Of a stretch of 64,000 nt of DNA, positions 16,575-52,555 are shown piece after piece. The notes beneath the pieces were generated by a model. It saw only the letters and a list, made by a program, of their open reading frames with translations, had not been told where the DNA came from and did no database searches. Position 1 is the stretch's first letter, and every line of letters starts with the position of its first letter. The stretch is taken from NCBI RefSeq assembly GCF_900218015.1, contig NZ_UFQQ01000021.1:1-64000 (forward strand), read 5' to 3'. Made by a program: the position numbers and the translations under genes. The stretch comes from Rhodopseudomonas pentothenatexigens (GTDB lineage: Bacteria > Pseudomonadota > Alphaproteobacteria > Rhizobiales > Xanthobacteraceae).

Positions 16575-16765
16575 GTGTGACCACGACTGACGGCAGGTCT
16601 CCTGGCTCGCGGGTCGCTGCCATTCGCCGCCTTCCCAGGACCAGAGCCCAGTGGCGCGTGGCGAATGGCTCGCCGCTCACAGTTGCGGGGGCAGCTGCGG
16701 AATGAAGTCCGAAGACCACCACCGCATTCCCTATTGATCCCTTGCGGGAACCGTCGCTGTTCACG
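16575..16765 (-). promoter_or_regulatory. Cobalamin (B12) riboswitch
   Basis: Read on the minus strand, the leader has the conserved blocks of the class: GGGAATGCGGTG, then AGCTGCCCCCGCAACTGTGA at about 16693-16674, CACTGGG and GGGAAGGC in the middle, and the B12 box AGCCAGGAGACCTGCC at 16607-16592. Arms that could form the closing helix lie outside these blocks. It ends about 110 bases before the receptor start at 16466. Adenosyl- or hydroxocobalamin binding would be expected to repress the receptor-PepSY operon. The exact ends are approximate. Confidence 0.95.
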
Positions 16766-16868
16766 GTATGGGTCATAAGGCGGCTCTGTCAACGCAAGGC
16801 CGGCCATGATCGCCGTCGCGACAGCATTTGGCGGCGAAAGCATGTTGTTCGGTCCCCAATAGATGTGC

Positions 16869-28188: not shown

Positions 28189-28308
28189 CGTCATTCCGGG
28201 GCGCGCGCAGCGCGAACCCGGAATCTCGACGTTGTTGTGCACCCGATTCGTTTCCATCACCTCGAGATTCCGGGCTCGCTCGCTGGCGCGAGCGCCCCGG
28301 AATGACGG
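28189..28308. repeat. Two ATTCCGGG-family palindromic repeats after matB
   Basis: GTCATTCCGGG..ACCCGGAATC (28190-28225) and GAGATTCCGGGCTCGCTCG..CGAGCGCCCCGGAATGACG (28263-28308). The first begins 11 bases after the matB stop. Confidence 0.75.
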
Positions 28309-28360
28309 GGGGCGGACACTGGTTAATATTAGTTGGGCCTTGAAGACGCGAGGCGCTGTT

Positions 28361-28532
28361 CTCCCCTCCCCCTTGCGGGGAGGGGTCGGGGGTGGGGGGC
28401 CACGAGCAAAGGGCCCGCGGCACCCCCACCCCGGCCTCCGCTTCGCCATAGCCGATGCAGCGCATCGGCGTAATTCTAAGTGACGGTGGCCGAAGGCCAC
28501 CTATGCGACCCTCCCCGCAAGGGGGAGGGGTA
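28361..28532. repeat. CTCCCCTCCCCC / GGGGGAGGGG long inverted repeat
   Basis: Left arm at 28361-28399 (CTCCCCTCCCCCTTGCGGGG then AGGGGTCGGGGGTGGGG) and right arm at about 28509-28532 (CCCTCCCCGCAAGGGGGAGG). The left arm matches the reverse complement of 41391-41430, inside the RluA-family gene, at 39 of 40 bases. With the repeats before it, it fills the 398-base gap between matB and the CDF gene; I see no gene in that gap. Confidence 0.75.
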
Positions 28533-41039: not shown

Positions 41040-41891
41040 TCAGTTCGGCGTCCAGCCGCAGGCAGAGAGCCGCGGATGCATATGCGCCGGCGGCGGCGCG
41101 GTGACCACCACCGGCGGTTTATTACGCGACAGCGGGATCACGATCTCGCGGGCGTGCAGATGCAGCCGGGGTTCGCCGAACCGCGGGCCGTTGCCGTAGA
41201 TGTTGTCACCGACGATCGGCCACCCCATCGCCGCACAATGCACCCGGAGCTGGTGGGTGCGGCCGGTGACCGGTTCGAGCGCCAGCCAGGTGAGGTGCGT
41301 CGGGGGTGGCGCACCGGATTTGGCGCCCGGCTTTCGAGTCGGATCGTCACCCTCTCCCCCGGCACTGAGAGCCCCCTCTCCCGCTTGCGGGACCCCCACC
41401 CCCGACCCCTCCCCGCAAGGGGGAGGGGAGGATCGACCCATCACCCGCCATTTCGTCAACGACGGCAGTCCCGCAGGATCGACCTTCTGCCACCAGCCGC
41501 GCTCGGCATTGAGCTTGGCGATCGGCAGATCGATGCTGCCTTCGTCTTCGGCCGGGCCGCCTTCGACGATCGCCCAATAGGTCTTGGAAATCCGCGAATG
41601 CTTGAACAGCAGTCCGAGCGTGGCGGTCGCCTTGCGATGCCGCCCGAGCACCAGGCAGCCCGAGGTGTCGCGGTCGAGCCGATGCGCCAGCACCGGCGGG
41701 CGCGGCAGGCCGAAGCGCAGGAATTCGAACGAGGTTTCCAGGTTCGGTCCGCCCTTGGGGCCGAGATGCACCGGAAGGCCCGGCGGTTTGTCGATCACCA
41801 GCATCAGCCCGTCGCGATACAGCACCCGCGCCTGGATCTGGTCCGCGGTCAGTTCCGGCACGTCGAATTGATCTGGGTGGCTTTCGTTCAT
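41040..41891 (-). CDS. RluA-family pseudouridine synthase carrying an in-frame repeat insert
   Basis: A 283-residue RNA pseudouridine synthase. The catalytic aspartate lies in HRLDRDTSGCLVLGR at about residue 70; RTHQLRVHCAAMGWPIVGD is the conserved C-terminal block. Between TKWRVMG and LTWLALEPVTG there are about 46 extra residues (SSPPPCGEGSGVGVPQ, then AGEGALSAGGEGDD and so on) encoded by a GC-rich palindromic repeat that is intergenic elsewhere in the window. Without it the protein would be the normal 235-240 residues. The insert lies in a surface-loop position, so activity may survive. The target RNA is not known. It is convergent with topoisomerase IB. Confidence 0.88.
   Translation of the reverse strand: MNESHPDQFDVPELTADQIQARVLYRDGLMLVIDKPPGLPVHLGPKGGPNLETSFEFLRFGLPRPPVLAHRLDRDTSGCLVLGRHRKATATLGLLFKHSRISKTYWAIVEGGPAEDEGSIDLPIAKLNAERGWWQKVDPAGLPSLTKWRVMGRSSPPPCGEGSGVGVPQAGEGALSAGGEGDDPTRKPGAKSGAPPPTHLTWLALEPVTGRTHQLRVHCAAMGWPIVGDNIYGNGPRFGEPRLHLHAREIVIPLSRNKPPVVVTAPPPAHMHPRLSACGWTPN
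41353..41430. repeat. Palindromic GC-rich repeat inside a coding sequence
   Basis: The strand opposite to the numbering reads CTCCCCTCCCCCTTGCGGGG then AGGGGTCGGGGGTGGGG, matching 28361-28400 at 39 of 40 bases, followed by GGTCCCGCAAGCGGGAGAGG. It is translated as part of the RluA-family protein with no stop codon. Confidence 0.85.
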
Positions 41892-44167: not shown

Positions 44168-44218
44168 CGCAACCTCTCCCGCGAGCGGGAGTGGGGGACG
44201 CGCTGCGGTCGGGGAGAG
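44168..44218. repeat. CTCTCCCGC..GGGGAGAGG repeat remnant
   Basis: CAACCTCTCCCGCGAGCGGG and GGTCGGGGAGAGGGTG form an interrupted inverted repeat related to the C-rich element at 28361 and 41353. It ends 18 bases beyond the ccmG stop. Confidence 0.5.
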
Positions 44219-52248: not shown

Positions 52249-52440
52249 AAAAAAGGACCAACTTGCGTCGGCCCAGGAGGGGGATTGAGGTTCTGCGTAC
52301 AGGCCCGGTCCCGACTGCCTCGGGGGGCTGGGGGCTGAGGAATCCGAAGCCGAAGGGACCGGGCCAACGCAGTGATGGTGTTGTCGCAACCGGGCTTGGC
52401 GCGCGGTGGGCGAAAATCGGGCGGCAATAAGAATTCGGCT
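52249..52440 (-). ncRNA. Candidate structured small RNA, 6S-like shape, family not assigned
   Basis: In the 406-base gap between the DUF1223 and DUF2794 genes. On the minus strand, GGCCCGGTCCC (52365-52355) pairs with GGGACCGGGCC (52312-52302), extended by TGCGT/ACGCA outside, giving a long stem with an internal region. It is followed by GGGCCGAC-GCAA-GTTGGTCC (52274-52255), whose two G-U pairs form only in minus-strand RNA, then TTTTTT: a good terminator. CCAA and TTGCG segments near 52405-52390 could close the ends. A 6S RNA is possible but I cannot confirm it. The 5' end is approximate. The rest of the gap shows nothing I can identify. Confidence 0.5.
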
Positions 52441-52555
52441 AACGAAGCCGTGAGATCGCAGCCGCCGAGGGATGTTTATGGGCCTGCTGCTTTTGATCCC
52501 CTTGCGGCCGTGCGCCGGTGGCGCAATCATGTCAGTGCAGTGACAGGAGGCGCCG

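Follow-up and report, generated by a model that had tools for sequence, protein, structure and literature searches.

An in-frame REP-like palindrome in an RluA-family pseudouridine synthase of Rhodopseudomonas, with a DUF559 nuclease as its candidate mover

An RluA-family pseudouridine synthase of Rhodopseudomonas pentothenatexigens contains an insert that is most probably a dispersed, non-autonomous REP-like dimer, which entered a turn of the protein in frame and was tolerated there, an event repeated elsewhere and for which a DUF559 nuclease is the likely mover. The gene lies in a stretch of 64,000 nucleotides, hereafter the window, and the genome is referred to as G000. A first-pass annotation of the window had noticed about 46 extra codons in this gene, and these correspond to residues 154-199. 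The insert is indeed present, although the position proposed for it, 41296-41437, was slightly off, and 41295-41432 was found. It is in frame and free of stops and, as had been suggested, it lies in a predicted loop, a turn between two strands that is predicted to be disordered.

The open reading frame of the host gene matches PseudoU_synth_2 (Pfam PF00849) with an E-value of 5.8e-30 and 105 bits, against a cut-off of 26.8. Residues H70, R71, L72, D73, T76, S77 and G78 are invariant in all 28 aligned sequences and belong to HRLDxxTSG, which we take to be the RluA-family motif with the catalytic Asp. The closest solved fold is that of RluA (2i82, E 6e-17, best Foldseek match). Judged by its sequence, the protein is an RluA-family pseudouridine synthase with a predicted activity. 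An AlphaFold model, made from an alignment of 28 sequences, has a mean pLDDT of 69; two of the five models were poor, with means of 38 and 37. In the model the insert is bracketed by two strands and has no secondary structure, and residues 157-196 have a pLDDT below 50, which fits a tolerated, disordered turn. The insert-bearing protein is presumably made and active, and the turn would merely tolerate the insert.

Table 1 Features of the window that belong to the synthase gene, its insert and the repeat arms.
Feature	Position	Strand	Remarks
RluA-family pseudouridine synthase gene, host of the insert	41040..41891	-	283 aa ORF, PseudoU_synth_2 match
In-frame insert, residues 154-199, 46 codons	41295..41432	-	Flanked by predicted strands 145-153 and 200-207
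Arm 1 of the palindromic element, 39 bases, read as SPPPCGEGSGVGV	41390..41428	-	
Arm 2 remnant, 19 bases	41374..41392	-	3-base overlap with arm 1 at the junction
Intergenic arm 1 copy	28361..28400	+	39/40 bases identical to the insert arm
Second, inverted arm opposite the copy at 28363	28508..28530	+	
Degenerate arm-2-like copy	44172..44195	+	3 mismatches

The insert had also been matched to an intergenic repeat at 28361-28400, and this match stands at 39 of 40 bases, the best 40-base match being 41391-41430 with one mismatch. It covers arm 1, and the remainder of the two-armed element is unmatched, because the window copy has lost its spacer and the greater part of arm 2; compared with the inserts of congeners, the spacer and the first part of arm 2 are gone. 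Among the ORFs over the degenerate copy at 44172..44195, a Pfam domain is found only in window:43669-44517:-, away from the arm copy. The window insert folds no better than shuffled sequence (z -0.63), which rules out a special RNA stability of this copy. An Rfam family at the element is likewise ruled out, since the only matches in a scan of the window lie elsewhere: the BjrC174 sRNA (52251-52454, minus strand, 188.7 bits) and a cobalamin riboswitch (16575-16770, minus strand, 124 bits). A different type of palindromic repeat (GGAATCTCGA.. / ..GGAATGACG), CGTC-like by eye, is located at 28200-28320 and adjoins the GC-rich dimer.

The genome has 32 places that match the 23-base core of arm 1 with up to three mismatches and 41 that match the core of arm 2, while the reversed-pattern control gave none for either core, so that the match at the insert is not due to chance. 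A genome-wide search of this kind had been recommended by the first-pass annotation; its places merge into 50 clusters, seven of which are internal and in frame, in six genes. Full copies are composed of arm 1, a spacer and arm 2, and span 96-123 bases in the 16 copies that were measured. Stops are absent from 79 of the 96 frames that 16 two-armed copies offer. A preset length of 3n was ruled out, since division of the lengths of 16 dimers by three leaves remainders of 0, 1 and 2 in 5, 6 and 5 cases. With a palindrome of 20-40 bases that is dispersed and frequently dimeric, the element resembles REPs. The tetranucleotides GTAG and CGTC, looked for within 8 bases of arm 1, were each seen in only one of 30 copies, and membership in the GTAG/CGTC-tagged REPs was thereby ruled out. 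RAYT-driven mobility was also ruled out: a search of the genome for a RAYT gave a single weak Y1_Tnp match (23.3 bits), at a locus without arm 1 and on a contig without any listed arm. When IleRS genes that have the element were compared by eye with those that lack it, no clear target-site duplication was seen.

The six genes of G000 with internal in-frame copies encode the synthase, an ATP-dependent DNA ligase, HrpB, UvrB (in two places), DNA polymerase I, where the copy lies between exonuclease domains, and IleRS, where it is a one-arm remnant. All six are nucleic-acid enzymes. This count comes from a domain scan of the 109 ORFs that cross repeat sites in G000, in which 25 of 55 families were viewed and the domains, located singly, were found to one side of the element save in these six genes. 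In RuvB, an AMP-binding enzyme, a Cons_hypoth95 protein, permeases and a fatty-acid oxidation enzyme the element precedes the domain and lies close to the start or upstream of it; in DUF559 it follows the domain. The internal in-frame hosts are the ligase, IleRS and the synthase in G028 (30 of 43 arm places covered), and HrpB, the synthase and the ligase in G125 (30 of 35 arm places). These two genomes gave 70 ORFs of at least 220 aa, of which 4 were known by coordinates and 66 were scanned; 25 of 28 domain families were viewed, and Phage_tail_2, Zeta_toxin and one ABC_tran were left unlocated. Across the 16 genus genomes searched, the ligase insert is present in all 12 in which the gene was resolved. 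IleRS has the full element in 4 of the 16, remnants in 2 and no element in 10.

Translated repeat pieces are also seen in other forms. In the IleRS of G119 (L328), another repeat-like insert (VTSPSPRARGEGRGEG..) is read in frame at a different site. In UvrB (L335-L350), the N-terminal linker and the C-terminal tail carry differing translated repeat pieces across the genus, and the linker is free of them in several genus genomes. An additional palindrome, translated as PGLDPG, sits nested in frame inside arm 1, at an identical point in several genes and genomes, namely in the inserts of L066, L043, L249 and L251 and in the UvrB linkers of L335 and L341. In L375 and L402 the element adjoins RRAFIAGSLAL.., which resembles a Tat signal start, so that the N-terminus of a phytase-like esterase may be encoded by the repeat.

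The synthase orthologue and its insert are present in all 16 genus genomes, which rules out a strain-specific origin of the insert. It is resolved in 13 of them. In two others (G128 and G129) contig ends fall within the insert, whose remains are still recognisable, and in G067 (L054) long runs of C and G break the frame, possibly through a sequencing or assembly fault at the hairpin. In the 13 resolved genomes the loop has 46-85 residues and arm 1 is always read in one codon phase. The ratio pN/pS in these genomes is 0.25 and 0.11 in the two flanks, 0.80 in the spacer and 0.66 in the tail; the flanks of the synthase are thus under purifying selection and the added peptide is nearly free.

The same turn was compared in relatives. 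The alignment with homologues that the first-pass annotation had advised shows the insert to be genus-wide and, among 80 named loci, most Bradyrhizobium loci to have a turn of three residues. In this set the 3-residue turn is also found in R. rhenobacensis and in one Rhodopseudomonas MAG, and long inserts are found in Bradyrhizobium sp. BTAi1, B. aeschynomenes, some further Bradyrhizobium loci and two Nitrobacter MAGs. A tree was built without the insert from 90 of 112 candidate rows, the other 22 having no flanking motifs or more than 8 mismatches. At least 20 residues occupy the turn in 27 of the 90 rows, 13 from the genus and 14 from other genera (28-88 residues), and these long loops need at the fewest 15 changes on the tree, which does not tell gain from loss. 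By a strict hairpin rule, the element is present in 20 of the 90 rows (13 from the genus and 7 others) and requires at least 8 changes, again with gain and loss not told apart; none of the 58 loops shorter than 14 residues passes this rule. Among the long loops from other genera, only 7 of 14 pass it. L037, L039, L045 and L102 have no such element, and the rule misses the visibly palindromic L118 and the degenerate L034, L035 and L131.

Both long and short loops exist within five genera. Congeners with insert and short loop have, for example, 33 and 3 residues (L033 and L047), 54 and 11 (L036 and L120), 55 and 3 (L038 and L114), or 54 in L042 as against 5 in L103 and L110. The core pattern matches in 14 of 14 genomes, with controls at zero, and in G016, G092 and G081 two core-pattern matches are inside the synthase gene. 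The insert was compared with repeats of its own genome in these three, and a clear match was obtained only in G081, where the synthase copy has a TTGAG loop that is common to 22 of the 30 one-mismatch places listed, itself counted. The first-pass annotation had held that the same 46 residues in distant genera would refute its reading; other genera were found to have inserts at the same place with different sequences, which points to repeated insertion. Together with the short-looped congeners, these other versions indicate that the turn has been hit repeatedly. Outside the family, no insert was found in any of the 20 genomes, out of 117, that were taken as having an orthologue (E 1e-69 or better, other best matches being treated as paralogues), so tolerance of the turn alone does not predict inserts.

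DUF559 genes adjoin the arms in G000, G028 and G125, where they were found through the ORFs at repeat sites. When inverted arm pairs 418-437 bases apart in other genera were picked by their spacing, a DUF559 gene lay between them in all five that were taken (G005, G050, G016, G081 and G012); none was present in two same-direction arm sets or in ten control dimers. Altogether, DUF559 genes lie between inverted arms in nine family genomes, G124 included (loci L444, L445, L447-L450, L452 and L453). If the DUF559 gene moves the arms around it, the arrangement would correspond to that of MITEs, which share inverted termini with an autonomous parent. On plasmids, 14 of 21 DUF559 genes, picked by protein match and so independently of arms (loci L464-L484), are located between inverted repeats with a score of at least 16 within 250 bases. 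In this search 43 records matched, 40 were listed and 21 were used, leaving out human-associated germs and some near-duplicates. The flanked plasmid genes come from three phyla (Alphaproteobacteria, Deinococcus and cyanobacteria), and many of their flanking repeats are C-rich hairpins that resemble those of Rhodopseudomonas. Some plasmid DUF559 genes lie within operons, between sufB and sufC, among transhydrogenase genes or between paaD and paaZ, and on three Deinococcus plasmids they lie at differing points among hpa genes, as expected of something mobile. Two phage records matched DUF559.

The translated arms differ from their surroundings in a way that allows for several explanations. Arm 1 of the synthase has a pS of 0.000 and a pN of 0.033 in nine genomes, while pS in the flanks is 0.29-0.41, and among 190 windows of 13 codons taken from the flanks the lowest pS is 0.152, so that none falls to 0.05. 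The nine genomes were chosen after viewing the data, leaving out G125 and G089, which have the nested insertion, and the divergent G119 and G126; with all 13 genomes, two of them with the nested insertion, pS is 0.048 and pN 0.069. In the ligase, pS of arm 1 is 0.038 (9 of 12 resolved genomes, 16 searched) against 0.338 and 0.361 in the flanks, and none of 136 windows is as low. Synonymous change so near to zero suggests that the arms are held at the DNA level, either by exchange between copies or by a constraint on the palindrome. Exchange, in the form of ectopic gene conversion by which dispersed copies overwrite the coding arms, is an explanation that we take seriously without favouring it. 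It accounts for these values in both genes and for the nested repeat at the same arm position in the synthase of G125 and G089, the ligase of G124 and G089 and the UvrB linker of G000 and G128, but the arms of synthase and ligase of one genome have no private variants in common, and the value obtained with all 13 synthases is less extreme. Selection on the hairpin as such, in DNA or RNA, with translation as a by-product, would explain the same stasis, and two full-length copies that were tested are far more stably folded than shuffled versions of them (z -5.2 and -5.4). We nonetheless consider this unlikely, as the window copy lacks the long hairpin and the IleRS copy of G000 has one arm, and both of these frames are open. 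It is improbable that the peptide has been adopted for a function, for example as a linker in nucleic-acid binding: its retention throughout the genus and the enzyme classes of the six hosts, which appear also in the REP survey by Di Nocera and colleagues (2013, PMC3733652), are what such a role would predict, yet spacer and tail evolve almost freely, the length of the loop varies, and most genus genomes have an IleRS without the element.

A single insertion in the ancestor of the whole family, followed by many losses, would explain why every insert lies in the same turn. It would also need many exact deletions to give loops of three residues; the sequences differ between genera, and one clade for the element-bearing rows is rejected (AU p 1.6e-44), so that we give this history hardly any credence. 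There is more to be said for DUF559 being a bystander, placed between repeats by chance or by repeats inserting alongside it and without a role in mobility: unflanked copies may exist, and 7 of the 21 plasmid genes have no inverted repeat. We find this rather doubtful in view of the 16 DUF559-matching loci, all of which have arms on both sides, although most of the 463 loci they come from were fetched because of their arms, and of the flanked plasmid genes, for which displaced windows gave 0 of 21, shuffles 0 of 420 and cross-genus pairs 6 of 386. The position of DUF559 genes between inverted arms suggests instead that DUF559 mobilises the repeats. A wider proposal can be made, which we consider slightly less likely than not: Vsr-like DUF559 nucleases may be dedicated partners of untagged, C-rich REP-like palindromes in at least three phyla, the arm-DUF559-inverted arm arrangement being the autonomous unit and its non-autonomous offspring being the two-armed dimers that are scattered over these genomes and read within RluA, DNA ligase, IleRS and other enzymes.

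In REP/RAYT systems (REPINs and REPtrons), inverted hairpin repeats surround a small gene that is a possible mobiliser of the scattered copies. The arrangement in Rhodopseudomonas resembles what is outlined in passages of PMC3733652 in having inverted hairpin repeats around a small candidate mobiliser gene; the gene is here a DUF559 nuclease and not a tyrosine transposase. By analogy, DUF559 may do for untagged repeats what RAYTs do for REPs. The Caulobacter DUF559 protein is described as Vsr-like in PMC12907096 and shares with ours the DUF559 domain of the PD-(D/E)XK superfamily; that paper deals with DNA damage and methylation, and 'palindrom', 'inverted' and 'transpos' are absent from its main text. 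The first-pass annotation had drawn a parallel with the palindromic elements of Rickettsia, which are palindromes of about 100-150 bases in frame in conserved proteins (extracts of PMC2229807 and PMC3733652). The likeness holds for a dispersed palindrome, stop-free and in frame within conserved genes, in a disordered turn, and is drawn here from sequence; host and element are different, and for some Rickettsia cases gene expression is reported in those extracts. The suggested novelty is not supported, since Di Nocera, De Gregorio and Rocco (2013, PMC3733652) had already treated intragenic in-frame REPs outside Rickettsia. The hosts given there include DNA ligase, uvrB, DNA polymerase I, tRNA synthetases, RNA helicases and tRNA pseudouridine synthases, R. 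palustris is among the REP-bearing species, and recB of two Xanthomonas species is hit by REPs at approximately the same site. The present element is similar to the REPs of that survey, which are short palindromes, often dimers, in frame and in overlapping host classes. It differs in having no GTAG/CGTC tag, and what is further found here is a single loop hit repeatedly, in genera that also have short-looped members, measured synonymous stasis and a DUF559 gene between arms. In-frame REPs are thus an established kind, and the distinctive features here are the lack of a tag on the repeat, a target loop that recurs unusually often, near-static synonymous sites and a candidate partner nuclease. 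Within the literature covered, which is incomplete, nothing was found on this repeat in the synthase loop or on DUF559 between palindromic repeats.

In the reading that we prefer, that of a dispersed non-autonomous dimer, the element is built of a pair of unequal hairpin arms, each about 23 bases long, whose G/C-rich inner tails are complementary; its whole length is about 96-123 bases, and most of its frames are open. Its entry in frame into the beta-hairpin turn of the synthase would date from the last common ancestor of the genus or from an earlier time, and the element would have persisted because the turn is exposed and tolerant and the peptide, predicted to be disordered, evolves almost freely. 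Later in-frame deletions and nested insertions would have altered its length, the window copy losing the spacer and most of arm 2, and in other genera the same turn would have been entered by versions of their own. Mobility would probably come from the Vsr-like DUF559 nuclease encoded between inverted arms.

To our knowledge, no mover of untagged REPs has been known so far, and the DUF559 gene between arms allows the matter to be put to the test. Both in a small enzyme and in IleRS, some genomes have the element at a given codon and others lack it there, which gives a natural series from selfish palindromes to protein. The near absence of synonymous change in the translated arms raises the question of how repeat families stay uniform, and the finding that all six internal hosts are nucleic-acid enzymes repeats a published trend that is without explanation.
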